Origin: Deltaproteobacteria bacterium
GTDB taxonomy: Bacteria > Desulfobacterota > Desulfarculia > Adiutricales > Adiutricaceae
NCBI GenBank assembly: GCA_031264145.1
Contig: JAISEK010000096.1
Coordinates: forward strand, 1 to 42,104
DNA: 42,104 bases
Direction: 5' to 3'
Below, in pieces: positions 21,136-38,467 of the stretch. Under the pieces are notes generated by a model. The model was not told the origin of the DNA. It saw only the letters and a program-made list of their open reading frames with translations, and did not search any database. Both the position numbers and the translations under genes were made by a program. Position 1 is the first letter of the stretch. Each line of letters opens with the position of its first letter.

Positions 21136-21150
21136 CTGCGGGGATATGCT

Positions 21151-21177
21151 GGGGACGCCCGAAAGGGCGTCCCCTAC
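21151..21177 (-). repeat. REP-like hairpin with GTAG-type flank
   Basis: GGGGACGCCC (21151-21160) and GGGCGTCCCC (21165-21174) form a perfect 10-bp stem with a GAAA tetraloop. On the minus strand the palindrome is preceded by GTAG, overlapping its first base. This is the tetranucleotide flank typical of bacterial REP elements handled by Y1 transposases. It lies between the nuclease-family fragment and the 3' end of the autotransporter gene, and might also stabilise that mRNA. Confidence 0.5.
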
Positions 21178-21260
21178 AGCGAACGCAGGTGGCATTTTGG
21201 CACTTTCGGAAGGGGAGAGCCTTTTTTATTCAGCCATGGACCGACGCCAGGGCCGCTGTC

Positions 21261-24200
21261 TCAGAATTCGTAACCGGCCCTCACGCCGAGCGAAAACCCT
21301 CTTGAACGGCCCCCATAGACCTGAAAACCAGCCTCGACGTCCCAAGGGCGATCAGGGGTTGAGCGAAAAGAGACGCCCATCTCGCCGATGCCCGTGCCGC
21401 CCCTCAGCTCGTCAGCGCTGAACCTGATGTTTAGGTGCTCGCCCGAGCTCTTGCCAGCGAACTCTTGCTCCCAGTAACCGCCGGCGTAAAAGGTCGCGCG
21501 CTCATTATGGCGGAAAGAATAGCGGAGGCCGCCTCTGGCCCGTTTGGAGGCAACGGAGTCAAAGTTGACTATTTCGCCTGAGTTCAGGGCGACACTGTCG
21601 CTGTCGAGCATCGTGTAATAGAAACGGGAGACGAAATCCAGGATTGAGCGCTCGCCAATCCTATGTTCATAGCCGAGTCCGGCGTGAACCGACCAGAAGG
21701 GGGTCGTCATCTCATAATCCATGAAGTTGCCAAGGGCGTTGTCGAAGACATGGGACTTGAAGCTGTTTCTGACCAACCCGTACCGACCTGAGGCCTCCAG
21801 CCGCAAGCCGCCGTGCCACTGCTGGCGGACCATCATGCCAATGTCCCCGGCCGTGATGAGGCCTTCGGCGTTTATATTTGGACCGAAAAGAGAGCCATAG
21901 TTCGCTTCTAGCTTGTACTTGCCTTTGACGCATTCCAGCATGACGCCCAAAAGGAAATCTGAGGAATCGGCCGGCCGCTGCCAGGCCATGCCGGCCACGA
22001 GCCTACCTGAGTTGGTACGGAGCTTGGTTTCGCGACCGGTCTCAATCATGGCGAAGTCGAGACCGACGAATGGGGCAAAGGCCTTTTTTGACTGCCTCAG
22101 GGCCATGTCCGCGCTCTCGTAGCTGTGGTCCGGCAGCCAAGTCTGGTTGAGAAGCCCCACGGTAGCGGCCTGGCCAGCCGTGAGAAGCCTCGTCTCGGGT
22201 ATGAGCTCCAAGGGATCGTTGGGGCTGACGATGTTGCTGAACGGGTTGTTGGTGAGGGGCGTCCAAAGCTTGAACAGCGGTTCCCCCGTCGCGGACTTCA
22301 CGTAGACCACTTCCGGATTATCCACGGCCGTCTCGATCTGGACCACGAGAGGCTCGCCGACGGCGTCTTTGACCTGAACCACCAGAGGCTCCCCGGTCTG
22401 CTCATGGATTTCCACCATCAGCGGATCGCCGGTGGCTGACTTGACCTCCACCATCAACGGGTTATCTACGGCCGTTTTGAAGTAGACCACCAAAGGATCG
22501 CCAGTTTGTGAGCTTTCGTAGACTACCAGCGGCGTATCCACCTGGGGATCTCTGACCAGCTGAAACAGCGGATCCCCCACTTCGCTCCTGACATAGACAA
22601 CCTCCGGATTGTCCACGGCTGTCTCAAACTGAACCACGAGAGGAGTGTCGACATCGTATTTGCTGTAAACCACCAGAGGCTCCCCGGTCTCCTCGATGAA
22701 TTGTACCATCAGGGGATCGCCGGTGGCGGCTTTAACTTCAACAAACAACGGGTCGCCCACGGCTTCTTTCGTGTAGACAACCAGAGGTTCGCCCGTTTCC
22801 GCGTTTTGGTAGACTACCAGCGGCGTGTCCACCTGCGGGTTTCTGACCAGCTGAAACAGCGGCTCTCCCACTTCGCTCCTAACATAGACTACCTCCGGAT
22901 TGTCCACGGCTGTCTCAAACTGGACAAAGAGAGGCTCACCGACGGCGTCTTTGACATGAAACATCAGAGGCTCACCGGTCTCCTCACGGATTTCTACCTT
23001 CAGGGGAACATCGGTAGCTGACGTGAACTCTACCACCAGCGGGACGTCAACGGCTGTTTTGGTATAGACGACCAGCGGCTCGCCAGTTTGCGAGTTTTCG
23101 TAGACGACCAGCGGCTCGTCCACCTGTGGGGCCTTGTATCCCAGGCGAGCCACCAGGTATCGCCCATCCCCGCCGACCGCGTCCTCGTTGTCGACAATGA
23201 AGTTGTATCTTGTGAGCAAGCCTTGGCGGGCGGTGGCCATTTTGGTGTTCTGATCCTTGGTAATCCAGTTGTCTTTTAGGGAATCAATGAGATAAAACCG
23301 GTCGCCTGGCTTAAGGCCCTGGCCGGCGGGAAAGTCCCCCAGACTGACGGTGGCGCCGGTGACCACGACATGGTTTGGGCTGTCGACTGTCAGAAGCGCC
23401 GTTGACACGTCATTGACCGTCCCGGCGGCCAGGTTGAACCACAAGGCGCCATTGAGGTAGGCCTGTTTTACCGTAAAACTGTTTTGCCCTAGCACGTTCA
23501 GCCGGGCGGCGGAACCCAAGCTGAACATGTGGTTTGTCGCCTCAAGGGTCATCCCGGCGAGGATGGTGGTATTGCCGCCTGAGAAATTGAACACGTTGTT
23601 TGGGGTAGTTCTGTAGTCGGTATCAGTATATACCATATTATTGCCGCCCCAGATAAAATGGCCAGCCCCGATCACTTCCATTTTAAAATACTTATTGCCC
23701 ATGGAACCGGTCTGATCGACCAATATGGGATCAAACAGGCCCACGGAACCCCCTCGACTGGTGTCAATGACCAGTTTGGCGTCAAGCGCCGGCGGATCGT
23801 CTTTTATGCTGTATGTTCCATTGTTATAATCATATTCGGGTATCCCGCCGAAATACAGCGAGTTTGTTCTTATAGACTCGGTGCCATTTATGGTCGCGTT
23901 TATCGTGTTGTTGAAGAAAACGACGCTGGAATCAGGGGTGCTGACCAGCTTGACGACGGCGGCGTCGCCCCCGGCGATGGTGCCAGTGTCGATGGTCACG
24001 GTACCGTAAACCCCGTATTTTTCAGTATAGCCAGGATAAACGCTAGTGTAGCTAGCTGTTGAGTTTAGGGTGGCCTTGAAGGCATTGTTCTCAAACCAGG
24101 TGCCTTCAATTGTCATTCCATCGCCAATCGTGCCGTAAGAGTAGACCAGGCCTCCCATGATGATGCCGTTTTCGGCCACGACATTGTTCCCGACAAAGTA

Positions 24201-26492
24201 GCTGTCCCGTATTTCATGTATGCCAATCAATGGAGCAGAGGATTGGGCAGAGTTGCCGGTAACGCCGACAATCCCGCCCCCATCAATATAACGTTCAACG
24301 GTAATTTTGTTGTTGATGAAATTAAGGCTGTTCAGGCTGTATACTAAGGCATACTCGTCCGAGTAGGCACCTACGATACCTCCGCCTTCAATATATGCGG
24401 CCTGTATGTTCTCGTTATAAAAGTCGCTGTATTCGATGGGGCCGATTAAGGCCCAGCCGCCCTTGGCGTAATGGCCAATCACGCCGCCGCCGTTTATTCC
24501 GTGAGTTGATTTCACTTCAAGCGCGGAAAAAACGTTGTGGTCCATGGCGACGACTTGATTATCGTCATCAAAGGCGATGGTCGTGGCGGTGCCGGTTTCG
24601 GCGCCTATGCCTATGATGCCGCCGCCGTAAATATTGTCCGCCGATACCTTGGAATTTTTAAAGGTATTATTGAAAACCTTGCCCAGATAGGTCATATTAT
24701 CGGGAAATAATACATCGCTTGTGGAGACGCCGATTACCCCGCCGCCGTGAATGCTTTTGGCTATGTTGACGGTTATGTTGTCAAAATAGTTGTCGTTCAG
24801 ATTATCGATGGCCGCCGTTTGCAGCGACGAGGCGCCAACCACGCCTCCGCCATGCAATTCTCCGTCCCCCCCGTCCGTGGCCTCGACGGTCACCTTGATA
24901 TCCTTGAACAGGCTGTTTCTGACTCCACCAATGACGGCTGAATTATTATATGAATTTACCCCAATAATCCCGCCGCCATCCAGACCTGCGCCTTTATGGC
25001 GCGTCCCAACCTCTACCTCGATGTTATAAAAAACGTTGTTGTCAGCCAGGCCAAGATAGGAAGGCACATCGGTGTCTATCAGGATGCTTGATGGCTCGCA
25101 ATTATTTTTTGTTGTACTCGGATCAGTATCAGAGCATTTACTCTGCACTCCTACCACGCCACCACCTCTGAGGTAGCTTCCAACTTCCACGTCAACGCCG
25201 GCAAATACGTTGCTGTCAAGATTGTAAAGATTCGTCTTGGCGTTGCTTAAGGCGTTAACCCCAATCACTCCTCCGCCTCTCAGGGAATATTCGGTCATGA
25301 CGGTAATATTGCCGTCTTTTCCATTGCCAAAAATATTGCCCTTTACGGAGCCAAGCGTGGCGTAGGTATCGACATCATTGTTTCGGGAGTTGTTGTTTAC
25401 TCCCACTACGCCTCCTCCAAGCAGCATATCACCAGAAATGATCGTAATTGTGCTAAAATAATTATATCCAAAGGAATCAATTTCGGCGTGACCTGATTTT
25501 AAATCTGGCGAGGAGACCCCATTGACTCCGATGATGCCGCCGCCTTCAATGTATGGGCTTCCTTGGCTGTTGGCCGCAGTTTTTTTCGTCGTTACCGACA
25601 AACCTGAAAAATAGTTGCCTCTGATTCTCCCAATTTCAACATTTTGGGGCAACGCTGTCTGTTCCGATGTCGCCCTGAGGCCAATAATGCCGCCACCTGC
25701 CAAATATTGGGTGTCTCGGGGACCCTCAATCGTTATGCGTATGTTTTTAAAGGCATTGTCAATGAACCCCTGCATGGACACGGTAGAGGCATTTTTGTTG
25801 TCGCTCCCGATAAACGGGTTGATCACCCCGATGGTGCCAGTACTGTTGATTTGATCTATTGACAGAAAATCCTCAAAGCTGAGACTTTGCACCAGTAAAC
25901 CGGGAGTGTCTTTGGTAAAGTTTATTATCTTATGCGTGTCAAAGAGGGCTTGATCACTTTCCCTATGGGTTGCATCCTTGTTGTCGCCCCTGATGTAGGT
26001 CATATTGGAAGGAACCTGAAATGTCTGCAGCTGGTTCTCCAGCCAGGCCCCAAAGACGGCGGGATCGACTGAGCGCCGGTCCCAGGCTTGGCCCTGTCCA
26101 AGTATGGCTGAGTTCAGGCCGGTGATTCTGGAGGTAAGCGCGCTGTCATTGCCAAGCATGTACACGTCTGCTCTATTAAGCGTTACCGGCGTATCCGTTG
26201 GTCCAAAATTAATGCCGTTTAGTCTATGAAAGGTCACCGTTCCCTGACTGGTGATCCCTGCCTGCCAACCGGCTCTGTTTGGGGCCGTGACTTCACCGGC
26301 ATGGGAACTGCGGTAGCCGATCGTGGGGAAAAAGGCCAGCGCCAGGACTAGGGAAACCAGGATCCGCAAAAAACTTGGCCGGTATCTTGGGAGCACCATG
26401 TCCCTGGCCGTCAACTGGCCGTAGGTTCTGGGATGGGCCGTGTCGTTGTAGTTGGCCGTTTCTTGGACTTTGGAGCCGCAATGATTTGACAT
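21261..26492 (-). CDS. giant autotransporter with repeat-rich passenger and beta-barrel
   Basis: Type Va-style secreted or surface protein of 1743 residues. The start at 26492 follows CAGGAG eight bases upstream. An extended N-terminal region precedes a hydrophobic signal core (FLRILVSLVLALAFF, near residues 40-55). Residues about 260-785 hold around a dozen GGG(I/V)(I/V)G motifs spaced by Asn-rich 'N.F.....v' strands, typical of a beta-helix passenger. Residues about 1124-1411 are 24 tandem 12-residue units. The C-terminal 270 residues (from FAPFVGLDFAMIETG) are an autotransporter beta-domain ending in Phe (AGYEF), the usual BAM signal. Composition is less GC-rich than the housekeeping genes. 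The role is probably adhesion or surface interaction; no catalytic motif is seen. Confidence 0.9.
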   Translation of the reverse strand: MSNHCGSKVQETANYNDTAHPRTYGQLTARDMVLPRYRPSFLRILVSLVLALAFFPTIGYRSSHAGEVTAPNRAGWQAGITSQGTVTFHRLNGINFGPTDTPVTLNRADVYMLGNDSALTSRITGLNSAILGQGQAWDRRSVDPAVFGAWLENQLQTFQVPSNMTYIRGDNKDATHRESDQALFDTHKIINFTKDTPGLLVQSLSFEDFLSIDQINSTGTIGVINPFIGSDNKNASTVSMQGFIDNAFKNIRITIEGPRDTQYLAGGGIIGLRATSEQTALPQNVEIGRIRGNYFSGLSVTTKKTAANSQGSPYIEGGGIIGVNGVSSPDLKSGHAEIDSFGYNYFSTITIISGDMLLGGGVVGVNNNSRNNDVDTYATLGSVKGNIFGNGKDGNITVMTEYSLRGGGVIGVNALSNAKTNLYNLDSNVFAGVDVEVGSYLRGGGVVGVQSKCSDTDPSTTKNNCEPSSILIDTDVPSYLGLADNNVFYNIEVEVGTRHKGAGLDGGGIIGVNSYNNSAVIGGVRNSLFKDIKVTVEATDGGDGELHGGGVVGASSLQTAAIDNLNDNYFDNITVNIAKSIHGGGVIGVSTSDVLFPDNMTYLGKVFNNTFKNSKVSADNIYGGGIIGIGAETGTATTIAFDDDNQVVAMDHNVFSALEVKSTHGINGGGVIGHYAKGGWALIGPIEYSDFYNENIQAAYIEGGGIVGAYSDEYALVYSLNSLNFINNKITVERYIDGGGIVGVTGNSAQSSAPLIGIHEIRDSYFVGNNVVAENGIIMGGLVYSYGTIGDGMTIEGTWFENNAFKATLNSTASYTSVYPGYTEKYGVYGTVTIDTGTIAGGDAAVVKLVSTPDSSVVFFNNTINATINGTESIRTNSLYFGGIPEYDYNNGTYSIKDDPPALDAKLVIDTSRGGSVGLFDPILVDQTGSMGNKYFKMEVIGAGHFIWGGNNMVYTDTDYRTTPNNVFNFSGGNTTILAGMTLEATNHMFSLGSAARLNVLGQNSFTVKQAYLNGALWFNLAAGTVNDVSTALLTVDSPNHVVVTGATVSLGDFPAGQGLKPGDRFYLIDSLKDNWITKDQNTKMATARQGLLTRYNFIVDNEDAVGGDGRYLVARLGYKAPQVDEPLVVYENSQTGEPLVVYTKTAVDVPLVVEFTSATDVPLKVEIREETGEPLMFHVKDAVGEPLFVQFETAVDNPEVVYVRSEVGEPLFQLVRNPQVDTPLVVYQNAETGEPLVVYTKEAVGDPLFVEVKAATGDPLMVQFIEETGEPLVVYSKYDVDTPLVVQFETAVDNPEVVYVRSEVGDPLFQLVRDPQVDTPLVVYESSQTGDPLVVYFKTAVDNPLMVEVKSATGDPLMVEIHEQTGEPLVVQVKDAVGEPLVVQIETAVDNPEVVYVKSATGEPLFKLWTPLTNNPFSNIVSPNDPLELIPETRLLTAGQAATVGLLNQTWLPDHSYESADMALRQSKKAFAPFVGLDFAMIETGRETKLRTNSGRLVAGMAWQRPADSSDFLLGVMLECVKGKYKLEANYGSLFGPNINAEGLITAGDIGMMVRQQWHGGLRLEASGRYGLVRNSFKSHVFDNALGNFMDYEMTTPFWSVHAGLGYEHRIGERSILDFVSRFYYTMLDSDSVALNSGEIVNFDSVASKRARGGLRYSFRHNERATFYAGGYWEQEFAGKSSGEHLNIRFSADELRGGTGIGEMGVSFRSTPDRPWDVEAGFQVYGGRSRGFSLGVRAGYEF
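22259..23123 (-). repeat. 24 tandem 12-residue repeats in three 8-unit blocks
   Basis: The coding repeat unit is 36 bases and encodes [VT][DG]xP(L/E)xVxxxxx, for example TGEPLVVYTKTA and VGEPLFVQFETA. The units form three consecutive blocks of eight, with the eighth unit in the first two blocks lengthened to 13 residues by an extra Pro. The same unit order recurs in each block (for example VDNPEVVYVRSE as unit 7 each time), showing two levels of duplication. Confidence 0.9.
24130..25710 (-). repeat. GGG(I/V)(I/V)G passenger repeats
   Basis: About twelve degenerate repeats in the autotransporter passenger carry the core GGGIIGVN or close variants (GGGVVGVNN, GGGVIGVST, GGGIVGVTG), with a last decayed MGGLVYS. 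Spacing is roughly 35-55 residues. The intervening segments repeatedly contain 'N.F.n..v.v', consistent with rungs of a right-handed beta-helix. Confidence 0.8.
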
Positions 26493-26500
26493 AGTGAAAT

Positions 26501-26520
26501 CTCCTGAAAACCAACAGGAG
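26501..26520 (-). promoter_or_regulatory. 5' leader hairpin masking the autotransporter ribosome site
   Basis: On the minus strand CTCCTG (26520-26515) pairs with CAGGAG (26506-26501) around TTGGTTTT. CAGGAG is the ribosome-binding site of the autotransporter, eight bases before its ATG. The hairpin would begin at about the predicted transcript start. Confidence 0.5.
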
Positions 26521-26534
26521 GCAATTATATGCCT
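26519..26534 (-). promoter_or_regulatory. palindromic -10 region of the autotransporter promoter
   Basis: The minus strand reads AGGCA-TATAAT-TGCCT: a perfect consensus -10 hexamer flanked by five-base inverted repeats. The -35 region (CTTAAA, 17 bases upstream) is weak, which suggests activator or repressor control. The palindrome itself could be an operator. Confidence 0.5.
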
Positions 26535-26859
26535 AATCCTTATGTTTTAAGACATTTTTGCATCCAAGTCTCTTTATTTTGCTAAAGACGCTTGAAATAA
26601 TGTTCATAGTAGAAATATTTACAACTACAGTGAACAAATAATTTGGCTATAATCATGCCAATTGATTCAAAATAGAGGGGCCATGACCAATAAAAGTTCG
26701 GATAAATAATTGGTCGGCCCGAACAAATAATACTGGTCAGCTGGACATTAATGCAGCAACGTCTTTCCCCAAGGGGGCCATCGCATAAGGGCCGGGAGCA
26801 CCAAGAGGGCGGCGTTCGATAATGTCGTTTGACGAATCGCCAGCGCCCGGCGGCGCCAG

Positions 26860-27490
26860 ACAAGGCGTCCATCGAATCTTTGTCCCCTCATTCAGCGACA
26901 TCCCCAGCGCGCGTCCCGATGGAGGATTCAAAATCGAAGGCAAACTCTACGGACTTCCATCATGGAGCGTCTTGCGGATGTCATGCCTGGCACCTGAAAA
27001 TACCGCGATAATTGGCGATTGGTGCTACAGCCACGTCGCCCAGGCCAGCCACTTTTTCAGACCTGGCGCTGGCCTGATGGGCGACTCGGCGAGAAAATCG
27101 ATTGGGCCAATCGCTTTGGTGACATCAAATGAAGAAATGGCGATACATCAGCGATGAGTCCACCTGTTCATGAGACGCTCCAATTGGCCAATGAAGGCGT
27201 CAAGGACGAGCATCGAAACAAGGCCTCGCCAGAATTTTCCCCTGACCGCCGTGGTCATTGAGCTCATGGCAGGCAAAGCAGCCATGGGCAGCTTGATCCT
27301 CGCTGAAACCAGGCCGTTTTTGGCCAGCCAAGGCGAAGGGCCTGTGGGCCATAAGTGGCCACGAGACGAGCGTTTACCACTTGGCAAACGTGGGATGATT
27401 TGTCCTTGGGCTGGCTTGAGCCCAAGCGAACCAGTTTGAAGAAGAACTGGACCGCATTCCGCTGGTTGATCATGCCTCGTGGGACATCCA
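26860..27490 (+). pseudogene. decayed ISAs1-family transposase
   Basis: Plus-strand frames carry scattered ISAs1 landmarks in the right order. FSDIPSARPDG...KLYGLPS (26885-26960) resembles the N-terminal 'fs.ipDpR....kLypL'. AVVIELMAGKAAMGSLILAE (about 27250-27310) resembles 'vVTiDAMGcQk.iA..I'. TWDDLSLGWLEPKR (about 27387-27430) resembles 'W..L.siGmvEs.R', and RWLIMP follows where RYyIsSlP is expected. They lie in different frames, and the spacing is shorter than in intact elements, so deletions have occurred. Identification rests on motif order and is moderate. Confidence 0.5.
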
Positions 27491-28219
27491 CTCGCCTATG
27501 GCCTGCCTTGGTAGTAATGTTTACGAAAAATAGAATAAAATACCAGTAAGTACTTTCCATGACAATTAACAGATGCGTTATGGATTGTCAAGTCCCAAGA
27601 CTATATAGAAGCTACTAAAAGTGTGTCATTGTGGCTACTAATAAGTTGTAAGATTCTGAAATTACGTGCCAATAAAAAAATAACAGATGTAGCTTGCAGG
27701 CGATGGTTTTTTTGATTAGTTTTGTGATAGCTGGAGAACAAGAGCGCGTCACATTTCAGGCCGGCCAAGGTCGTTGCCCAGTCCATGTCTTCAAGCATCA
27801 TTTAAGAATACTACGTTCATTTTATTATGAACAAGTAAATGGTGATGTTTAGACCAAAATTGACATAAATAATTCCGTTAAAACCTGCAATTATTCAGAA
27901 CATAGAAATAATAGATCAATGAAACATGATTATATACACGTTATAGTAATATATAATGTCAACAATTTAATGTGTCAAACTTTGATGATGATATAAAAAG
28001 CATGTTTTATTGAAATCTATTAAAATAAAGCCCTGATAATATGTCTAAAACCTGGTCTTTTTTAGGCATTCCAGGTGTTTTGCCTAGGCCTCAACCTTCA
28101 GCGTTAGTTTTTGATAGATGTATGTGAACGCTATAATGGTAAAAATAGTAAAAAAATGTTTTGATTGAAAAATTAGACCCTTTGACCTGCCAATAATAGT
28201 GTCTGCCAATGGAGCCAGG

Positions 28220-28255
28220 CCACCACCAAAAATCTGACAGCCACCACCAAAAATC
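28220..28255 (+). repeat. two direct repeats with 21-bp period
   Basis: CCACCACCAAAAATC occurs at 28220-28234 and again at 28241-28255. The 21-base period places both copies on the same helix face, as in tandem activator or repressor sites. Confidence 0.6.
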
Positions 28256-28321
28256 CATGCCCGGTCCGGTCCAAAAGCCCGAAACGAGCCATGGATCCAG
28301 GCGACGGAATGTGCTATTATG

Positions 28322-28340
28322 AAAACTATCGCATAGTTTT
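28322..28340. promoter_or_regulatory. perfect palindrome, candidate operator
   Basis: AAAACTAT-CGC-ATAGTTTT is a perfect 8-base inverted repeat about 250 bases upstream of the helicase/Wadjet genes and 15 bases before a weak -35-like TTGACC. It lacks the GC-rich stem of a strong terminator. Confidence 0.4.
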
Positions 28341-28588
28341 GGGTCAGTTACACCCTTGACCAGCCTCTTGATTGTCAGGCATATATATCTTGGACGATTC
28401 CTTTTACGCTGAAACTTGAAAAAAGATGTCTTTTTGGGGCGGCCCCGCGCCTGGCTCAGGCCCGCCATTATCTTTTGCGTTAGGCCGGCCGGCACCTTGC
28501 CCGGCCGTCCATCCCCAGGCGCGGAAGACCAATCCATCCCCCCTGGCCCAGGGGCCCTGGCCAGGGCGTAGTTTTACCGGAGACCACG

Positions 28589-31243
28589 ATGTCAGCCATA
28601 AACGAGGAGATGACCTTCGTCTCGCGAGACTGCAAGAGCATACTGGACATCTGCGACAAGCTCAGCCAGGTCAGCCAGAAGATTCTGGCCAACGACAAGA
28701 CCCGTCTCCTGGACAGCGGCCAGCTTTCCACCCGCCTGGGCTCCAGGGACCACGACTCGGAGCTCTTCGCGGCGGCCAGGCTCCAGGACGTCCCGGTCAT
28801 CGCCAGGATCTCGTGCAAGGACGAGACAAACAGGACCAGGATCTTCTACACCTGCCCCTGCTCCCCGCCCTCGGGCATCCCCAGGGCCAACCTGGCCTCC
28901 ATCTACTCCCCCCTGGGCCGCCTGGCCGTCCTGCCCCTGGGCGCGACCCTGGCCACCAGCAGGGACGGGACCCTGGTGGTGACCGACAGGGCCGCCCTGC
29001 GGCCGGCCGACTACCGGGTGTCGAGGGACGTCCAGGACACCCTGTTCGAGTCCCTGCACCGGGACCGCATCAGGGTCAAGTCCCTCCGGGACTTCTTGCG
29101 CGTCTTCGGCGAGAACCGGGCGGCCCCGGCCCTCCCCGAGGGTGAAGAGCCGCCCCTGGTCCCGGCTGAGGAGCTGGACGTGGTGGTCGATGAGGGCGAG
29201 ACCCGGCCACAGGCCATCTTCCCGTCGCTCTTCCAGCCCCACCTGATGGACCTGCCCCAGGACGACGTCATGAGGCGCCCCTTCCAGGCCAGGCAGTTCA
29301 TCGTCGGCCCGCCGGGCTCGGGCAAGACCACCACCCTCATCAGGCGTCTGGACTTCATGGTCGCCGGCGAGGCCCTGGAGGCCGAGGAGAGGGGCCTGCC
29401 CGAGCGGCTGGACGGCCAGTCCGGCCAGGGCCATGCCTCCAGCTGGTACCTGTTCGTGCCCACGGACACCCTCCGCCAGTATCTCAAGGACTCCTTCGCC
29501 CACCTGGTCATCCCTGGCTCCGGGGAGAACGTCCTCACCTGGGAGGAGGCCAGGATCGATCTGGCCACGAGCCACTTCCGCATCCTGGACCAGGGCGACG
29601 GCCAGGGCCTGGCCCTGGCCAGGAGGCCAGGGCGGGTCTCCAGGGCGGCCATGGCCGACACGGCCCGCTGGTATTCCGATTTCGCCGCCTTCCAGGCCAG
29701 GGCCTATTACCGGTCCCTGGCCGTCCAGGCCGGGTTCCTGGCGGGCCACGACGACGGCGGGCTGTCCCGCCTGGGCCAGCAGCTCCTGGAACTCCTGGAG
29801 AAGAGCTCCGACCACACGCTGTCCTGGTTCAGGCGGGCCCTGGAGCCCTTCCAGGAGGCCATCTCCGAGCTGGTCCAGGCCAGGACGTCCGTCCTCCGGT
29901 CCGAGCTGAAGGCCGCCTTCCAGGCCCACACCGAGCGGGATCCCGCCCTGGTGGCCGGGCTGGTCTCGCTCTCCTCCGTGGCCGGGCAGGCCAGGGAGCC
30001 CGACCCCTCCCAGGCCCGCTTCCGCGCCGAGGCCGCCCGCGTCTACGCCTCGGCCCTCATCGACCAGGCGGTCGCCCTGGCCAAGGGCCGCAGGCTCGGC
30101 CGCGACAGCCTCTCCAGCCGGGTCGTGGCCTGGCTGGGGGAGGGGAGGCTCCTCCCGGCCGACCGCCTGAGGGAGCTGGGGGCCGATCAGGCCGTCTGCC
30201 GGGCCCTCCGACGCTTCAAGGTCGACGGCCGCGGCTTCCTGGACTGCTACTTCGACTCCATCGTCCCCAACTACCTCCTCTTCCGGCGGCGCGACCGCCT
30301 CTGGTACCAGGGTCGCGTCGGGGCCAGCCGCCAGGTGGAGCCCCTGGAGGTCGACCTGCTGCTTCTGGCCTTCCTGGAGTCGGGGGCCGAGCTCCTCAGG
30401 CATTCCGGCTCCCCCCACGAGACCATCCGCCCCAACTGGTCGCTCCAGAACCAGGCCTACCTCTCGAGGAACCAGGTCCTGGCCGACCAGGCCTCCGACT
30501 TCTCGCCCGTCCAGCTCAAGTGCATGGCCGCCCTTGCCGGCCCTGGCCTGGGCTCGGTCACCGTCGCCGGCGACCTGGATCTCCGGACCACACCCTGGGG
30601 CCTCCGGTCCCTGGACGATCTGGAGTGGGCCCTTCCCAAGGCTTCCCTTTCCGAGCTCCAGGTCAACTACCGCCAGTCGCGGCAGCTCCTGGATCTTTCC
30701 GACTCCCTGTCCGGCTCCAACCGGGACCGCTTCTCCGTGAGCCGCTTCGGGGCCCAGGGGCCCAGGCCGGCCCTGGCCCAGAACTGCGGTGGCCTCCAGG
30801 AGACGGCCCTCTGGCTGGCCGCCAGGGTGGCCGAGATCGTCTCCAGGGCCGGCCGTCTGCCCTCCACGGCCGTGGCCGTCCTCAGGCCCTCCGAGGCCGG
30901 CCCCCTGGCCGAGGCCCTTTCCCGGGCCCTGGAGGGGCAGGGCCTGAGGGCCCTGTCCTGCGGGGCCGGGCAACCCCTTGGCCGCTCGGCCGACGTGCGC
31001 GTCCTGCCCCTGGATCAGGCCAGGGGCCTGGAATTCGAGGCCTTCTTCCTGGTGGTCGGGGGGGATGCCCCGGCCGGGTCGGTGCCCCTGGGCCGCCTGG
31101 CCTACCTGGCCGCCTCCAGGGCCGCCACCTACCTGGGCCTCGTCTTCAGGGAGGCCCTGCCGGACGGCCTGGGGAACCTGGCCAGTCTGTCCGTGGCCAG
31201 CTGGTCCCAGCCCCTTGAGCCCCTCGAGGGCCTGGGCCTTTGA
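28589..31243 (+). CDS. HelD/UvrD-like SF1 helicase homologue with altered Walker B
   Basis: Protein of 884 residues resembling HelD-type SF1 proteins. It has an N-terminal coiled segment (FVSRDCKSILDICDKLSQV), a P-loop GPPGSGKTTTLIRRL near residue 240, then about 380 residues of inserted helical domain before the remaining motifs. LQVNYRQSRQLLDLSD (near 690), QARGLEFEAFFLVVGG (motif V, near 810) and LAYLAASRAAT (motif VI with Arg, near 840) are well kept. Motif II, normally DEAQD, reads DQASD (near 632), and motif III, normally GDxxQ, reads GDLDLR (near 660). ATP binding is plausible but hydrolysis should be impaired. GGAG precedes the ATG. It lies 78 bases upstream of jetA in the same direction and shares the composition of the jet genes. 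Confidence 0.75.
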   Translation: MSAINEEMTFVSRDCKSILDICDKLSQVSQKILANDKTRLLDSGQLSTRLGSRDHDSELFAAARLQDVPVIARISCKDETNRTRIFYTCPCSPPSGIPRANLASIYSPLGRLAVLPLGATLATSRDGTLVVTDRAALRPADYRVSRDVQDTLFESLHRDRIRVKSLRDFLRVFGENRAAPALPEGEEPPLVPAEELDVVVDEGETRPQAIFPSLFQPHLMDLPQDDVMRRPFQARQFIVGPPGSGKTTTLIRRLDFMVAGEALEAEERGLPERLDGQSGQGHASSWYLFVPTDTLRQYLKDSFAHLVIPGSGENVLTWEEARIDLATSHFRILDQGDGQGLALARRPGRVSRAAMADTARWYSDFAAFQARAYYRSLAVQAGFLAGHDDGGLSRLGQQLLELLEKSSDHTLSWFRRALEPFQEAISELVQARTSVLRSELKAAFQAHTERDPALVAGLVSLSSVAGQAREPDPSQARFRAEAARVYASALIDQAVALAKGRRLGRDSLSSRVVAWLGEGRLLPADRLRELGADQAVCRALRRFKVDGRGFLDCYFDSIVPNYLLFRRRDRLWYQGRVGASRQVEPLEVDLLLLAFLESGAELLRHSGSPHETIRPNWSLQNQAYLSRNQVLADQASDFSPVQLKCMAALAGPGLGSVTVAGDLDLRTTPWGLRSLDDLEWALPKASLSELQVNYRQSRQLLDLSDSLSGSNRDRFSVSRFGAQGPRPALAQNCGGLQETALWLAARVAEIVSRAGRLPSTAVAVLRPSEAGPLAEALSRALEGQGLRALSCGAGQPLGRSADVRVLPLDQARGLEFEAFFLVVGGDAPAGSVPLGRLAYLAASRAATYLGLVFREALPDGLGNLASLSVASWSQPLEPLEGLGL

Positions 31244-31321
31244 TGATGGCCCGGCCCCAACCCCCGGGCCCCCCCTCCACCTGGGGCCCGTGGCCGTCAT
31301 CTTGACCCCTGGCGCGGCCCG

Positions 31322-32791
31322 ATGTCGTCCAAGTCGAGGGTAGCCGACTATCTCGTCCTCAGGAAGTCGGCCCAGTGGCAGCTGCTGGCCTCCAACCAGG
31401 GCCCCTACGTCATCGCCATCCTCCAGGCCATCTTCCACGACGACCCCGACAGGCGGATCCAGAAGGGCTCCTCCGTGCTGGCCGCCCTTGGCCGGGAACT
31501 CTCGGGGCTCAGGGACCAGGGCCTCGGCGAGCTGGCCCGGAGGCCCCAGGACTACCTGAACGCCTGGGTCAACGACGGCTACCTGATCAGGAGGTTCCCG
31601 CCTGGGTCCAGGGAGGACGAGTATGAGCTGAGCGCCCCGGCCATCGACGCCATCCGGGTCGTCTCCGGCATGCTCAACCAGCGGGTGGCCCTGACCGAGA
31701 GCCGCCTGGCCATGGTCATCCAGGCCATGGAGCGCCTCTCGGATGACTCGGACCCCGACGCCGGACGCCGGGCCGAGCGCCTCCGGGAGGAGCGCGACAG
31801 GATCGGGCGGGAGATAGCGCGCCTGGAGAGCGGGCAGGCCACCATGGCGGCCCCCGAGGTCTCCCTGGAGCGGGCCAGGGAAATCATCGACATAAGCCAG
31901 GGCCTGACCGAGGACTTCAGGCGGGTCCAGGACCGCTTCGTGGCCCTCCACCAGAGGCTCAGGGAGAGGCTCCTCGTCTTCGACGAGAGCCGGGGCCAGG
32001 TGGCCGGCGAGGTCTTCGAGGGCATCCACGAGATAGAGGGGAGCGAGGACGGCCGCTCCTTCGACTCCTTCTTCGCGATGCTTATGGACGAGGAGCAGCG
32101 GGCCCGGATGACCCGCAGCCTGGGGAACATCCTGGAGGCCGACTTCTTCGCTGCCCTCGATCCCGTCGAGCAGGGTTACCTCAAGTCGTTCGACACCGCC
32201 CTGCTCAGGCAGTCGATGCTCGTCCAGAGGGAGACCACCCGCCTGGGCAAGGGGCTCAGGGAACTCGTGCAGAGCCGCTCCTACCGTGAGCGGCGCCGCC
32301 TCCTGGGGATCATAACGGAGGCCAGGGAGGTGGCCCTGGGGGTCAAGGAGATTGTCGGCCCGCCCAAGCCGCTGGACCTGGACCTGTCGCTCACCAGCGT
32401 GGGCCTGGGCTCGGTCTCCCAGGTCACCCTCTTCGATCCTTCCCAGGTCCCCTCGGCCGAGCCGATGCGCCGGGCCGAGGGGGGACAGGTCGATCTCGGC
32501 TCGCTTTCCAGCGCGATCCGGGGCTCGGAAATCGACTATCCCTCCCTCCGGAGGCTAGTGGCCGAGGCGGCCGGGAGGCTTGGCCGGGCCTCCATAGCCG
32601 ACATCCTGGGCCTTTTCCCGGCCACCCAGGGACTGGGCACCGTGGTCGGCCTGGTCCACCTGGCCCACCGCCACGGGGAGCGCGGCCAGGGACGGGAAAC
32701 GGTCGGCTGGCGGGGCCTGGACGGGTTCCGGCGCACGGCCAGGATTGACAGGTGGCTCTTCAGCCAGGAGAGGCTCCATGAGCTTTCATGA
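31322..32791 (+). CDS. jetA: Wadjet protein JetA (DUF3375, MukF-like kleisin)
   Basis: Kleisin-type subunit of 489 residues. The N-terminus (VADYLVLRKSAQWQLLASNQ...VIAILQAIF) and the long helical middle (LTESRLAMVIQAMERLSDDSD onward) fit the DUF3375 family that defines type I JetA, the counterpart of MukF/MksF. It would bridge the JetC heads and recruit JetB. The C-terminal part (PSLRRLVAEAAGRLGRASIADIL) looks like a winged-helix head-binding region. The ribosome site is weak. The end overlaps jetB by 14 bases. Nothing looks truncated. Confidence 0.88.
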   Translation: MSSKSRVADYLVLRKSAQWQLLASNQGPYVIAILQAIFHDDPDRRIQKGSSVLAALGRELSGLRDQGLGELARRPQDYLNAWVNDGYLIRRFPPGSREDEYELSAPAIDAIRVVSGMLNQRVALTESRLAMVIQAMERLSDDSDPDAGRRAERLREERDRIGREIARLESGQATMAAPEVSLERAREIIDISQGLTEDFRRVQDRFVALHQRLRERLLVFDESRGQVAGEVFEGIHEIEGSEDGRSFDSFFAMLMDEEQRARMTRSLGNILEADFFAALDPVEQGYLKSFDTALLRQSMLVQRETTRLGKGLRELVQSRSYRERRRLLGIITEAREVALGVKEIVGPPKPLDLDLSLTSVGLGSVSQVTLFDPSQVPSAEPMRRAEGGQVDLGSLSSAIRGSEIDYPSLRRLVAEAAGRLGRASIADILGLFPATQGLGTVVGLVHLAHRHGERGQGRETVGWRGLDGFRRTARIDRWLFSQERLHELS

Positions 32792-33674
32792 CCAGGATCC
32801 GCCCTTCCAGGGGCCAGAGACGGCGCCGGGCGGCCCCCTGGAGGCCGAGGCCGAAGACCGGGAATCCGTCGAGGAGGTGGAATCCCTCGAGGGCCAGCCC
32901 GGGGACATCCACGACCTTCCGAGGGGGCTCTTTTCCGGCGACCGGGGGCGGCTCCCCTTCCAGGCCAGGCTGGTGCTGTGCCGTCTCCTGAAGGGGCCCT
33001 ACATCGACCGGGCCCAGACCCCCGAGCTCTGGTCCGGCCTGGTCAGGTACCAGGACGCGGTGGAGGCGTGGCTGGGCGAGATCTTCGTCGAGCTGGTCGC
33101 CGACCTCCAGGCCGGGGTCGGCTTCATCCGGCAGGTCGACGCCGCCCAGCTGCCGGTGAGCGTGCCCACCCTCCTGCGCCGCCGGAAGGTTGGCTTCCTG
33201 GAGTCCCTCCTGCTCATCTATCTGAGGGAAAGGCTGTCGCTGGCCGAACTCCAGGGGGAGAGGGCCACGGTCAGGACCTCGGAGATGACCGAGCACCTGA
33301 GGGTCTTCCGGAGGAAGGGCGACACCGACCTCTCCGGGCTCGACAAGCGCATCAACGCCGCCATCTTCAACGTGGCCAACAAGTACTACTTCCTGCGGAG
33401 GGTGGGCTCCGCGGCCGAGGACGTCTACGAGATATCCCCGACCCTCAAGCTCATCCTGCCCCCCGAGACCATCGAGATGCTCAGGGAGGAATACCAGGAC
33501 TACCTCGGGAGGATCCAGGCTTCCGCCTCGCCGGACGGCGACGGCCTGGAGGACCTCTTCGGGCTTGAGGCCGAAGGGCCGGACGGCGACGGTTCCGGCC
33601 AGGACGATGGCGGGTCCTGGCCCGACGGGCCCCTTGACGGCGAAGACGGGGACGGGCCGGATGGCGATGGTTGA
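32778..33674 (+). CDS. jetB: Wadjet protein JetB (DUF4194, MukE-like)
   Basis: KITE-type subunit of 298 residues, counterpart of MukE/MksE. The core (LPFQARLVLCRLLKGPYIDR ... FLESLLLIYLRERLSLAE ... EMTEHLRVF) has the paired winged-helix pattern of DUF4194. The start at 32778 follows GGAGAGG and lies inside the end of jetA, indicating coupled translation; a longer frame lacks a site. From about residue 247 the protein ends in an acidic, Gly/Asp-rich tail (PDGDG, GQDDGGS, GEDGDGPDGDG). I do not expect this in the family, and it could be a flexible regulatory or DNA-mimicking tail. Confidence 0.85.
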   Translation: MSFHDQDPPFQGPETAPGGPLEAEAEDRESVEEVESLEGQPGDIHDLPRGLFSGDRGRLPFQARLVLCRLLKGPYIDRAQTPELWSGLVRYQDAVEAWLGEIFVELVADLQAGVGFIRQVDAAQLPVSVPTLLRRRKVGFLESLLLIYLRERLSLAELQGERATVRTSEMTEHLRVFRRKGDTDLSGLDKRINAAIFNVANKYYFLRRVGSAAEDVYEISPTLKLILPPETIEMLREEYQDYLGRIQASASPDGDGLEDLFGLEAEGPDGDGSGQDDGGSWPDGPLDGEDGDGPDGDG

Positions 33675-33809
33675 CCCCATAGTGGCTGGCCTTTTCCCGC
33701 CGCGCCCAGGCCCCCCGGTTCCCCCCCGTCGCCCCCCCGGACTCCTGCCCAGGCCATTTTGGTCCTTATGGGCCGGGCCGGTCCACCCTTCCCCAACGAT
33801 GGTCTTGCC

Positions 33810-36800
33810 ATGTCTCCCCCATTGGACTTTTCCCCAAAAAGCGACCTGAGGCTGCCGCGGCCCTCCCTCCTGGACGGGGTCAGGTATTCCCGCCCGCAAG
33901 GGGAGCAATACCGCCTGTCCCGCTTCCAGCTCCTCAACTGGGGGACTTTCTCTGACTACCATGACATCCCCGTGCCGCGGGACGGCCTTCTGGTCACCGG
34001 TCCCTCCGGGGCCGGCAAGACCACCCTCCTGGACGCCTATTCGACCATGATCATCCCGCCCCAGTGGCTGGAATACAACTCGGCCGCCAGGGACTCGGGC
34101 CGCCGGGACAGGAACTCGGTCAGCTACGTCAGGGGGGCCTGGGCGGCCCTGAGGACCGAGGAGCAGGGCCAAATCGTCACGCAGTTCCTGAGGCCGGGCA
34201 CGACCTGGTCGGCCCTGGCCCTGACCTTCAATAAGGGCCTCGGCCAGTTCCTGACGCTCCTGCAGCTGTTCTGGCTCAGGGGGGCGGCCAAGGGGAGCAT
34301 AGGCCGCCACTACTTCGTCCTCCGGCGGGAGCTTTCCCTGGAGGAGCTCAGGTTCAACGAGCTCGACTTCAGCGTCAGGGAACTCAGGAAGGCGATCGAC
34401 TTTGACCTTGAGGCCGGCAGCTTCGAGGAATACCAGGCCCACTTCGGCGAGATTCTCGGCCTGGCCCCAAACGCCCTGAGGCTCCTGCAAAAGACCCAGT
34501 CCATGAAGAACATCGAGGACCTCGACAGCTTCCTCCGCAACTTCATGCTCGACGTGCCCAACACCTTCGACGCCGCGAGCGAGCTGGTCGAGGAGTTCAC
34601 GGCCCTCAACCTGGCCCATGAGGCGGTCCTCAAGGCCAAGAGCCAGATGGAGGTCCTGGGCCCCATAAGGCTCGGCTGGAACGAGCACGTGAGGGCCGGG
34701 GCCGGCCTCGCGGAGGCCAGGCTCCTTTCCCAGTCCCTGGAGGCCTACTGTGGACAGCGCCGGATGGCCCTCATCAGGGAGGAGCTGGCCGGCCTCGAGA
34801 CCAGGGAGGCCGATCTCCGGCGCCAGGCCCTGAACCTGAGCGCCCTGATCAGGCTGGGTAACGAGAAGCTGAACGACCTCCGGGCCCAGTATGCCCAAAA
34901 CGACGGCGACCTCCTGGATCGGTGCCTGGCCGACCGCGAGGAGCGCAAGGGCCGGTTGGCCCATATGCGCTCCGAGCTGGAAAAGGCCCGCTCGGCGGCC
35001 GAGGCCCTCGGCCTCGGGCTCGGGGACGGCCAGGAGGGGTTCGCCGCCCTCCAGGCCAGGGCCCAGGCCGAGCTGGACGGCCTCGGCGAGCGGCGCCGGC
35101 TCTTCCGCCAGGCCTTCAAGACCCTGGTCGGCCTGGAGGACCGGATGGCCAGCGGGCTCGCCGGGGTCGAGCGGGAGATTGCCTGCCTGGGTAAACAGGC
35201 CGGCAACATCCCGGCCGACGACTGGGAGCTGAGGGAGGCCATGATCGGGGACCTGGGCCTCGATGGCGGGAGCCTGCCGTTCGTCGGCCAGCTCGTCTCG
35301 GTCAAGGACGACCACGGGGGCTGGGAGGCGGCCATCGAGCGGGCCCTGGCCCCTCTGGCCCGCTCGGTCCTGGTCGAGGAGGGCCAATACCTGGCGGTGA
35401 CCGAGTACGCCAACGCCCGGCACCTTGGCGGCCGGCTGTCCTTCCTCCTGGCGAGGACGGACGTCCCTGACTTTTCCGGGGTGGGCGATTTGTCAGCTGA
35501 CTCCCTCCTGGCCAAGCTGGAGATAAGGCCGGGGCCCTTCAGGCAGGCCCTGGTCCTGGAACTGGGCCGCCGCCTGGACCTGCGCTGCTCCGCCTCTCTG
35601 GACGGCTTCAGGGCCAGCGGGGCCGCCTTGACCCAGGAAGGCCAGGTCAAGCTGGACGGCGCCCTCCACGAGAAGGACGACCGGGCCGGCCTGGGCGACG
35701 AGCGGGGCTTCCTGCTGGGCGCCGACCCGTCGCGCAAGCTTTCGGCCCTCCGCCGGGACAAGGAGAGGCGCGAGGCCGAGCTTTCCGGGATAAGGGCCAG
35801 GCTGGGCGACAACGACAGCCAGGAGGCGGAGATGGAGAAAAGGGCCGGCCAGTGCCGGCTCATCCTGGATCTGGGCTGGGAGGGGATAGACGTCTCCGGC
35901 CTTTCCGGCTCCATCTCCGAGCTTGACGAAAGAATAAGGTCTCTGCAAAACAAGGATCGCAGGATATCTGAACTGAGGGACGAGATAACCCGCCAGGAAC
36001 GACATGTGGACAATCTGCGCAGAGACAATGCGGCCCGCGATCACGAGATTATCGTGGTTACTGGCAGAACATCAGAACTGTCAAGCGAATTGCGCCATCT
36101 CATGTCCGAAAAGGAAATCTACAATTTGAAAGATGACATAAAGGCGCAATTGGATAAGTATTTTATCGATCATGGAAAACTGTCCCTCAAGAACATCGAC
36201 TCGGTCATGCGGCGCGTGGAAAAAGCTATCGGGAACATCGAGCGCTCCCTCGACGGCGAGCAAAAGAGCCATGAGCTCTTCCTCCAGGCCTCGTTCAGGG
36301 ACTTCATGGCCAAATGGCCGGAGGACTCCCTGGACGTGAGGCCTGAGCTTTCCTACTCCTCGGACTTCATCTACAAGCTCGAGGCCCTGGAGAAGGACAG
36401 CCTGCCCAGGCTCCAGGGCGACTTCAACCATCTCCTCCAGAAGCAGGGCAAGCAGAAGGGGGCGGCCCTCCTGAGGTGGATGGACGTGGAGCGCCAGGAG
36501 ATCCTGAAGCGCATGGGGCTGGTCAACGAGAGCCTGGCCGGCATCCCTTTCAGCCAGACGGGCGGCAAGCCCTCCTTCCTGAACCTCAGGACCGTCTTCC
36601 GGGAGCCCGAGGAGGCGGTGGCCTTCAGGGCCTCCCTCAGGGGCGCCGTAAGCCAGATCGGGAGCCAGGACCCAGACCTTGACGAGGAGAGCTTCAGGAC
36701 GCTCAAGAGGCTGGTGGCCGACCTCTCCAGCCAGGACAGGGACAGGCTGGGCTGGCGCGACCGGGTCCTGGACGTCCGCCGCCATTTCGAGTTCACGGGC

Positions 36801-37280
36801 CTTGAGTTCGACGGGGACAAAAACGAGCTGGAGACCTACCGCAGCGGGGCCGGCAAGTCCGGGGGGCAGCGACAGAAGTTGGCCGCGACGTGCCTGGCGG
36901 CCGCCCTCCGCTACCAGCTGGGCGGCGCGGAGCAGGGTTTTCCCAGGTTCGGGACCGTGGTCTTCGACGAGGCCTTCGACAAGATAGACGCCGAGCTGAC
37001 CGTCCTGGCCCTCAAGATATTCAACAGCCTGGGCTTCCAGATGATCCTGGCCACGCCCATGAAGAACATCCCCCTCTCCGAGCCCTTCGTCGGCGGGGCG
37101 GTCTACGTCTCCATCGCCGATCGCCGCAAGTCAGGCGTCACGGCCATAGTCTACGACCAGGACCGGCGCCGGCTCCTGTGGCCGGAAGGCGGGGGTGGCC
37201 ACGATGGCGCCTCCCAGGACCAGGCCAGCCCTGCAGGGGGACCAGAGGGTGGCCCGCCGCCAATCCCTGACGGGGCCTGA
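33810..37280 (+). CDS. jetC: Wadjet protein JetC (MukB-like SMC ATPase)
   Basis: SMC-type motor of about 1156 residues. Walker A GPSGAGKTTLLDAYSTM lies near residue 64, a long coiled coil spans the middle, signature SGAGKSGGQRQKLA lies near 1018 and Walker B FGTVVFDEAFDKID near 1050. All ABC-ATPase elements look intact. It would extrude DNA loops with JetA/JetB and present small circles to JetD. ATG 33810 is preferred on family-like N-terminal sequence (SPPLDFSPKSDLRL). An in-frame ATG at 33768 and TTG at 33759 are possible, and none has a strong ribosome site. A stretch at about 35925-36185, inside the coiled coil, is visibly less GC-rich than its surroundings. Confidence 0.88.
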   Translation: MSPPLDFSPKSDLRLPRPSLLDGVRYSRPQGEQYRLSRFQLLNWGTFSDYHDIPVPRDGLLVTGPSGAGKTTLLDAYSTMIIPPQWLEYNSAARDSGRRDRNSVSYVRGAWAALRTEEQGQIVTQFLRPGTTWSALALTFNKGLGQFLTLLQLFWLRGAAKGSIGRHYFVLRRELSLEELRFNELDFSVRELRKAIDFDLEAGSFEEYQAHFGEILGLAPNALRLLQKTQSMKNIEDLDSFLRNFMLDVPNTFDAASELVEEFTALNLAHEAVLKAKSQMEVLGPIRLGWNEHVRAGAGLAEARLLSQSLEAYCGQRRMALIREELAGLETREADLRRQALNLSALIRLGNEKLNDLRAQYAQNDGDLLDRCLADREERKGRLAHMRSELEKARSAAEALGLGLGDGQEGFAALQARAQAELDGLGERRRLFRQAFKTLVGLEDRMASGLAGVEREIACLGKQAGNIPADDWELREAMIGDLGLDGGSLPFVGQLVSVKDDHGGWEAAIERALAPLARSVLVEEGQYLAVTEYANARHLGGRLSFLLARTDVPDFSGVGDLSADSLLAKLEIRPGPFRQALVLELGRRLDLRCSASLDGFRASGAALTQEGQVKLDGALHEKDDRAGLGDERGFLLGADPSRKLSALRRDKERREAELSGIRARLGDNDSQEAEMEKRAGQCRLILDLGWEGIDVSGLSGSISELDERIRSLQNKDRRISELRDEITRQERHVDNLRRDNAARDHEIIVVTGRTSELSSELRHLMSEKEIYNLKDDIKAQLDKYFIDHGKLSLKNIDSVMRRVEKAIGNIERSLDGEQKSHELFLQASFRDFMAKWPEDSLDVRPELSYSSDFIYKLEALEKDSLPRLQGDFNHLLQKQGKQKGAALLRWMDVERQEILKRMGLVNESLAGIPFSQTGGKPSFLNLRTVFREPEEAVAFRASLRGAVSQIGSQDPDLDEESFRTLKRLVADLSSQDRDRLGWRDRVLDVRRHFEFTGLEFDGDKNELETYRSGAGKSGGQRQKLAATCLAAALRYQLGGAEQGFPRFGTVVFDEAFDKIDAELTVLALKIFNSLGFQMILATPMKNIPLSEPFVGGAVYVSIADRRKSGVTAIVYDQDRRRLLWPEGGGGHDGASQDQASPAGGPEGGPPPIPDGA

Positions 37281-37285
37281 CGGCC

Positions 37286-38467
37286 ATGAGGACGCCCGAC
37301 GACCTGAGGGCCCAGATTGGCAGGGACTTCGCGAGGAGGGACAACCTGGACTCCTGGCTCAGGTTCCGTGCCGGGCAGGGGGAGCCACCCGGCCCCTGGC
37401 CCAGGACCTACGGCCTGGGGCCGCCCAGCCAGGAACAGGCCGAGGATTACGAGGCCTTTTCCCGCTTCGTGGCCTCCTGGCGCGACCTGGGCCTTCCCGG
37501 CCGGGTCTCCTGGGTGGAGAAGTCCTGGAGCCGCCTGGGCCGGCAGACCGTCCCCAGGACCCTCTCCATCGACGGCCCCGGGGATCTGGCCCGCTGGGCC
37601 GGCCAGGAGGAAAGATGGGCCCGGCTGGAGGCCAGATACCTGGCCCTCCTGGGGCGCTGGCCGGTCCTGGCCGAGGTCCTGGCCGGCCACCTGGGCGATC
37701 TGGCCGACTACCCCGAGGAGGATTTCGACAGGATATCCAAGGTCCTGGGGTGGCTGGAGAGAAACCCGTCCTCCTTCCTCTATCCCCGCCAGCTGCCCAT
37801 AGCCGGCCTGGACTCCAAGTGGCTGGAATCACGCATGAGGTTCATGGCCGGCCTGGCCGCCCCCATCCTGGGCCGCGAGGCGGCCGGGAAGGATTTCCAC
37901 GAGATCTGCGCCCTAAAAAGGCGGACCGGCCTGGTCCGCCTGCGGCTCCTGGACCCTGGCCTGCGGGCCGCCGTCGGGGGCCTCGGACAGCTGGCCGTCC
38001 CCAGGGAGGCCCTGGCCGGCCTCCCCTTGGCCCCCAGGACCGTCGTCATGGTCGAGAACCTGGAGACCGGGCTGGCCTTCGGTGACCTGCCGGGGACCGT
38101 CCTGATTCTGGGCCAAGGCAACGGCCTCAAGGGTCTCGGCCAGATTCCCTGGCTCTTGGCGGCCGAGCGCCATCTGTACTGGGGCGACATCGACCTGGCC
38201 GGCCTGGCCATCCTGGGCCGGGCCAGGAGGCAGGTCCCCGGCCTTGCCTCCGTCCTGATGGACGAGGCCACCCTCATGGCCAACCGGGACCTCTGGGGCA
38301 CGGACTCCAGCCTGGCCATCGAGGAGCCGGCCTTCCTCACCCCCCAGGAACTCGATCTCTTCAGGGCCCTTTCCTCCGGCCGATTTGGCCCCAGGGTGCG
38401 CCTGGAGCAGGAAAGGATCGCCTGGGATCGGGCCTGGCCTTCGTTCCTGTCCCTGGCCGGCCAGTAA
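37286..38467 (+). CDS. jetD: Wadjet nuclease JetD (DUF3322/DUF2220, Toprim)
   Basis: Nuclease subunit of 393 residues that cleaves the plasmid trapped by the JetABC complex. The N-terminal arm (DDLRAQIGRDFARRDNLDSWL...) is the DUF3322 part. The C-terminal half is DUF2220, a topoisomerase-VI-like Toprim domain. Catalytic features are visible: VVMVENLETGLAF gives the Toprim Glu (near residue 255) and LYWGDIDLAGLAIL the DxD pair (near 298). The start is five bases after the jetC stop. No terminator with a T-run follows. It is the last gene of the operon, and the sequence turns AT-rich soon after. Confidence 0.9.
   Translation: MRTPDDLRAQIGRDFARRDNLDSWLRFRAGQGEPPGPWPRTYGLGPPSQEQAEDYEAFSRFVASWRDLGLPGRVSWVEKSWSRLGRQTVPRTLSIDGPGDLARWAGQEERWARLEARYLALLGRWPVLAEVLAGHLGDLADYPEEDFDRISKVLGWLERNPSSFLYPRQLPIAGLDSKWLESRMRFMAGLAAPILGREAAGKDFHEICALKRRTGLVRLRLLDPGLRAAVGGLGQLAVPREALAGLPLAPRTVVMVENLETGLAFGDLPGTVLILGQGNGLKGLGQIPWLLAAERHLYWGDIDLAGLAILGRARRQVPGLASVLMDEATLMANRDLWGTDSSLAIEEPAFLTPQELDLFRALSSGRFGPRVRLEQERIAWDRAWPSFLSLAGQ

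Follow-up and report, generated by a model that had tools for sequence, protein, structure and literature searches.

A divergent HelD-like gene with altered motor residues lies directly upstream of type I Wadjet in one genus of Adiutricaceae

The window analyzed here, by which we mean the whole stretch of 42,104 nucleotides (contig JAISEK010000096.1, positions 1 to 42,104, assembly GCA_031264145.1), comes from a Deltaproteobacteria bacterium of the family Adiutricaceae and carries a type I Wadjet operon preceded by a large gene which we call hel. As read from the sequence, five tightly packed open reading frames (ORFs) follow one another on the forward strand in the order hel-jetABCD (Table 1). 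The description of jetA to jetD as complete and tightly packed, and of a large superfamily 1 gene 78 bp upstream of jetA in the same orientation, as given in the initial annotation, was borne out: PADLOC recognized a complete type I system (JetA1, E 6e-148; JetB1, 4e-59; JetC1, 0; JetD1, 3e-112), and Pfam agreed. The ATPase motifs of JetC look intact (Walker A GPSGAGKT, signature SGGQRQK, Walker B VVFDEAFD), as does the toprim motif of JetD (E...DxD, with the toprim E and GDID). The GC fraction is about 0.61-0.73 over the operon versus 0.44-0.56 immediately upstream. The question addressed below is what hel encodes and whether it belongs to Wadjet.

The Hel protein of the window exceeds the cut-off of no Pfam, PADLOC or NCBIfam family: it scores 11-13 bits with Pfam UvrD-helicase and UvrD_C, and 15 bits with the NCBIfam HelD/HelR models against a cut-off of 1100 (HelR_2). 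Its relatives reach 30-59 bits on the same NCBIfam models, compared with 419 for HelD_BACSU, and a copy from a sister genus (g7) clears the UvrD_C cut-off. Searched alone against the PDB with phmmer, the window protein weakly retrieved as top chains the HelD of Mycobacterium smegmatis (6e-5) and that of Bacillus subtilis (1e-3). A profile of the family gave HelD 6yxu at 1.8e-18 and 6wvk at 3.2e-16, with a match collinear over Walker A and motifs II to VI. A first AlphaFold2 model, for which 17 close sequences were used, had a poor pLDDT of 64 and was replaced, after adding relatives from IMG/VR, by a model built on 22 sequences with a pLDDT of 84 and a pTM of 0.85. In the Foldseek comparison of this model with the PDB, the seven best matches were all RNA-polymerase-bound HelD chains (best E 8e-17), with AddAB and UvrD ranking lower. 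The HelD-like architecture initially proposed is thus confirmed at the level of profiles and a predicted fold, and the protein is best described as a divergent HelD-like protein, nearest to RNA-polymerase-bound HelD and not to plain UvrD. HelD itself removes RNA polymerase from DNA. No canonical HelD sequence that would have allowed a direct profile-profile comparison turned up in the phylum.

The predicted domain order is that of HelD: a Gre-like N-terminal region, D1a, a helical insert, D1b and D2. HelD proteins have a Gre-like N-terminal region made of a coiled-coil "pike" and a globular domain, and a helical protrusion of D1 named the "bumper" (PMC7749165). The match of the Hel family profile to HelD extends weakly over the N-terminal globular domain, through a 29-residue segment against LAKEPAIARVVVKDEEGRTRILYICRA, and a direct Pfam GreA match sought in the protein was not found, so that the Gre-like assignment rests on collinearity with HelD. 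The most conserved 20-residue stretch of the whole protein is its N-terminal helix, encoded by the first 20 codons (MSAINEEMTFVSRDCKSILD), with a mean identity of 98% within the genus of the window, above that of Walker A, and of 84% with sister genera.

The distribution of hel was studied in 37 genomes of the family, all metagenome-assembled genomes (MAGs) 61-96% complete; the homologue counts given here and below depend on the genome collections searched. We designate by g1 the genus of the window and by g2, g3, g7, g10 and g11 other genera of the same family. Eighteen genomes carry hel, nine carry jetA and seven carry both, all seven belonging to g1. In each of these seven, hel lies directly before jetA, with an identity of 50-88% between Hel proteins, and JetC identity among g1 genomes drops as low as 41%; the intergenic gap was read in all seven, two contigs abutting inside jetA in one of them (G001). 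The association therefore extends beyond a single strain, the restriction to which had been named as the finding that would speak against it. Eleven genomes of g3, g7, g10 and g11 have hel without jetA, and two g2 genomes (loci L056 and L057) have the jetABCD genes without hel. Outside the family, a profile search found no hel in 395 genomes of the phylum, and the gene was absent within about 9 kb of all 13 further Wadjet loci of the phylum with readable context, from the neighborhood of the six plasmid Wadjet loci viewed, and from phage records, in which no homologue was found. A pattern scan of genome contigs, with patterns that were probably too specific, returned 17 hel loci, all from "Deltaproteobacteria" MAGs; they presumably belong to termite-gut Adiutricaceae-like bacteria, judging in part from PMC9137090. 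Since hel occurs without Wadjet, Wadjet without hel, and other Wadjet loci lack it, hel is not a general or regular Wadjet gene. Of the proposal that it belongs to a type I Wadjet operon as its fifth gene, what stands is its constancy as a neighbor in g1.

Two other helicase-type genes were seen near Wadjet loci. On an Arthrobacter plasmid (L140, 5223-14467), a RecB-type nuclease/helicase fusion stands just before jetA-jetB-jetC, with no jetD annotated after jetC, and in another genome of the phylum (L109, 2699-10474) a 1751-residue fusion of SF2 (DEAD) and UvrD types lies two genes before jetA.

The motor residues of Hel have changed in a graded manner. The motif II glutamate (DEAxD) is gone in six of the seven g1 copies, replaced in DQ, DA, DG or DD: the window has ADQASD, the others VDAASD, VDGACD (twice), VDGASG and LDDLAD, and IDELTD occurs in one genome only. 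The motif III glutamine is gone in all g1 copies. In the g10 and g11 copies the glutamate of motif II is still present, but the glutamine of motif III has disappeared. Those of g3 read DD at motif II, and in the homologues from plasmids, IMG/VR and g7 neither residue is lost, motif II being VDEATDFSP or VDEAxDFSP. Throughout all hel copies Walker A, NYR(Q), the GLEFE/GMEFE motif and the motif VI arginine are conserved. The window copy therefore presents Walker A, NYR and the motif VI arginine without DExxD and GDxxQ, which leaves the motif set of a functional NTPase incomplete. The reading frames are nevertheless intact, at about 880-920 residues wherever the gene is whole, and in the closest g1 pair (G001 and G006), in which both copies carry VDGACD, the ratio of nonsynonymous to synonymous substitution rates (dN/dS) comes to 0.115 in hel, against 0.094 in jetA and 0.165 in the MoxR/vWA gene, so that hel is under purifying selection. 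Because the motif II and III residues are lost, Walker A is kept and dN/dS is low, Hel is probably an ATP-binding RNA polymerase factor and no working helicase. AMPPNP or ATPgammaS frees HelD from RNA polymerase (PMC7749165); since release is obtained with these analogues, a protein which binds ATP and does not hydrolyze it could still cycle as a switch.

In other genomes of the family, hel is found in a neighborhood that does not depend on Wadjet. In g7 it is the last gene of a tight cysS-uvrB-recJ-TPR-hel array, and in g11 the last of recJ-TPR-vWA-hel; in g11 and g1 the MoxR/vWA gene precedes hel, with recJ and uvrB further upstream, and the vWA-hel gap is about 0.4-1.6 kb in g1 genomes other than that of the window, where an AT-richer block intervenes. 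The position of hel behind uvrB-recJ-TPR(-MoxR/vWA) probably predates its link to Wadjet. Several other features of this region were observed. Behind recJ, at the same site in three g1 species (window 12980-13417; L041, 6427-6888; L043, 4913-5407), lies an ORF for an IS200-type Y1 transposase, checked with Pfam in two of the three and perhaps a fixed or domesticated copy. The 1743-residue ORF of the AT-richer block (21261-26492, reverse strand) contains three tandem repeats of 97 residues (76-77% DNA identity) and short glycine-rich repeats, is likely to encode a large surface protein, and adjoins the integrase at 19329-20321. Just 3' of jetD, a HEPN and nucleotidyltransferase pair (39606-40252) likely forms a HEPN/MNT toxin-antitoxin module.

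Table 1. Features of the hel-Wadjet locus and of its upstream neighborhood (window coordinates)
Feature	Position	Strand	Remarks
hel-jetABCD order	28589-38467	+	five ORFs, tightly packed; read from sequence
hel, HelD-like protein, 884 aa	28589..31243	+	Gre-like N-terminal region, split UvrD-like NTPase core, large helical insert
hel, first 20 codons	28589..28648	+	best-conserved 20-aa segment of Hel
hel, N-terminal globular domain (residues 67-175)	28787..29113	+	collinear with Gre-like globular part of HelD (model, profile, Foldseek)
hel, Walker A GPPGSGKT (residues 240-247)	29306..29329	+	intact
hel, motif II ADQASD (residues 632-637)	30482..30499	+	catalytic Glu replaced by Gln; DEATD in plasmid/BREX homologues
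hel-jetA gap, 78 bp	31244..31321	+	GC-rich hairpin, no U-run
jetA (DUF3375, kleisin)	31322..32791	+	Pfam and PADLOC
jetB (DUF4194, KITE)	32778..33674	+	ORF from TTG 32745, probable start ATG 32778; Pfam and PADLOC
jetC (SMC ATPase)	33759..37280	+	probable start 33810; Pfam and PADLOC
jetD (toprim nuclease)	37286..38467	+	Pfam and PADLOC
uvrB	9056..11176	+	older hel neighbor in the family
recJ-like (DHH-DHHA1-RecJ_OB)	11028..12869	+	
TPR protein	13514..14917	+	g7 counterpart 47-82 bp before hel
MoxR-type AAA and vWA protein	14922..16934	+	counterpart immediately precedes hel in further g1 genomes and in g11
AT-richer block, integrase and 1743-aa repetitive ORF	18391..28537		between vWA gene and hel, in this genome only

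The initial annotation had placed the only regulatory-looking DNA before hel; this is borne out only in part, in that no sigma70-like site was scored within the operon or the hel-jetA gap, but none was scored in the upstream segment 28000-28588 either, the scan covering 28000-38467, and such sites were found only in AT-rich flanks. In six of the seven g1 genomes (the window, L040-L043 and L045) the gap can fold into a strong, GC-rich hairpin that lacks a U-run (z -2.1 to -5.6), the hairpins differing in sequence from genome to genome; such a hairpin could terminate part of the transcripts, or lead to RNA processing, between the two genes.

A wider family came to light through a tblastn search of plasmids, which returned ten full-length or partial relatives with 27-36% identity, annotated as "ATP-binding domain-containing protein" or similar. 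The relatives from Raoultella, Aeromonas and Escherichia coli, as well as those of some IMG/VR contigs, lie in a WYL-SNF2-DUF4391-hel-type III methyltransferase-type III endonuclease operon. This arrangement of a WYL/HTH regulator, SNF2, DUF4391, the HelD-like gene and the type III methylase and endonuclease is conserved (L119, 7794-19732; L123, 7746-21301; L146, 6028-17830), and its HelD-like gene exceeds no PADLOC or NCBIfam cut-off. Among 5426 complete E. coli genomes, a relative is near whole in 8, and short remnants only are found in 44. Two IMG/VR contigs have brxC-hel-pglX, with an intact motor (L134, 4482-7202; L135, 7773-10496), and we found no report of a HelD-like gene in BREX in the open-access literature. 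The Sphingomonas relative lies beside a PLD nuclease and Ssp genes, the Croceicoccus one beside an N-6 methylase and HNH, and those of Caulobacter and Vibrio beside conjugation or partition genes. In another IMG/VR contig (L131, 3109-10574), the HelD-like gene directly follows genes for an SbcD-like exonuclease and a Rad50/YhaN-type ATPase, which is a second tie of the family to an SMC-like ATPase. None of the wider-family relatives examined adjoins Wadjet.

We lean towards the reading that Hel is a resident, motor-eroded HelD-type RNA polymerase factor that Wadjet joined, and that it is a stable companion of the system, neither a core subunit of JetABCD nor a working helicase; this reading accounts best for the distribution, the neighbors and the loss of motor residues. 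Hel would then be an old resident of the uvrB-recJ-TPR-MoxR/vWA neighborhood in one Desulfobacterota family, probably of termite guts. Its Gre-like N-terminal arm would dock at the secondary channel of RNA polymerase and its helical insert would wedge the main channel, with ATP binding, not hydrolysis, triggering release. In the simplest history, hel was there first, and it was in the g1 ancestor that a type I Wadjet cassette settled immediately downstream of it, the pair having stayed together since and probably sharing expression. Some points weigh on the other side. Binding to RNA polymerase is predicted from the fold, and HelD seems to have a longer N-terminal coiled coil. Because the genomes are incomplete MAGs, with some sister contigs ending at hel, the absence of jetA is uncertain genome by genome. 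Finally, distant relatives with intact motors sit inside BREX, type III restriction-modification and Ssp defense operons, and this embedding raises the prior for a functional tie of hel to Wadjet, which we regard as plausible.

The strongest form of such a tie would make hel a functional fifth Wadjet gene in g1, whose product either clears plasmids of RNA polymerase or senses it there, allowing JetABC to extrude and JetD to cut, or else gates the complex. The constant adjacency in g1 despite the divergence of JetC argues for it, as do the BREX operons with the gene between brxC and pglX, the type III/SNF2 operons, the Ssp neighbors, the relative that immediately follows the Rad50-type ATPase and exonuclease genes, and the coincidence of the motor change with the Wadjet-linked clade. 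However, the erosion had already started where Wadjet is absent, with motif III in g10 and g11, four sister genera have hel without Wadjet, and the other Wadjet loci of the phylum and of plasmids lack it; moreover, since the whole uvrB-recJ-vWA-hel stretch is conserved too, the adjacency may be plain vertical inheritance. We consider this explanation possible but unlikely. A bolder proposal, which we hold as about equally tentative, is that the unnamed HelD-like family is a shared accessory of BREX, type III restriction-modification, Ssp, Rad50-type pairs and g1 Wadjet. Its members may detect RNA polymerase on the DNA under attack, or clear it away, the Wadjet branch being an ATP-binding pseudo-motor that would gate or assist loop extrusion on transcribed plasmids.

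That hel is a decaying, functionless neighbor retained by chance would fit the way in which g1 and g3 have lost motif II and III residues step by step, but the intact frames and a dN/dS similar to those of jetA and of the MoxR/vWA gene led us to reject this reading, to which the almost invariant N-terminal helix is also opposed; we give it very little credence. Least credible of all is an active superfamily 1 helicase or translocase loading or directing JetABC on DNA: the core is UvrD-like and largely retains the Q-motif, Walker A and motifs IV-VI, but the catalytic residues of motifs II and III are lost from the window copy, which makes a working helicase unlikely, and the fold comes closest to HelD rather than to UvrD or Rep.

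SMC motors such as Wadjet have to contend with RNA polymerases transcribing the very circle that they reel in. Together with its relatives in BREX and restriction operons, an RNA-polymerase-directed HelD-type protein fixed beside g1 Wadjet would allow a direct test of whether DNA-targeting immune systems share a helper that clears RNA polymerase. A passive link to Wadjet would still leave what appears to be an undescribed HelD branch from outside Gram-positives, in which motor loss can be followed step by step in a natural series.

Compared with known systems, the locus combines familiar and new elements. The described Wadjet set is JetABCD (PMC10586767), and we found no helicase in Wadjet operons in the open-access literature; the window has this set complete, with intact ATPase and nuclease motifs, and g1 adds to it a constant upstream HelD-like gene absent at the other Wadjet loci examined. 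The proteins of about 900 residues annotated on plasmids and in defense islands as "ATP-binding domain-containing protein" are homologous to Hel over their full length, with the same motifs and domain order, but differ from it by intact DEATD and GDFNQR and by their BREX, type III restriction-modification (with SNF2 and DUF4391), Ssp or conjugation partners. With GajB and other UvrD-like defense helicases Hel shares a weak similarity of the UvrD core, with scores near noise, and the GajB partner GajA was not seen beside hel; it is because of its Gre-like N-terminal region that we group Hel with HelD instead. With HelD, the RNA polymerase recycling NTPase of B. subtilis and M. smegmatis, it shares the domain order, the helical insert splitting the NTPase core and a reduced D2, but it is about 100-150 residues longer, with a larger insert (residues about 345-570) and a shorter N-terminal coiled coil, it lacks the motif II and III residues, and it belongs to a Gram-negative lineage in which its neighbors are uvrB, recJ and Wadjet.

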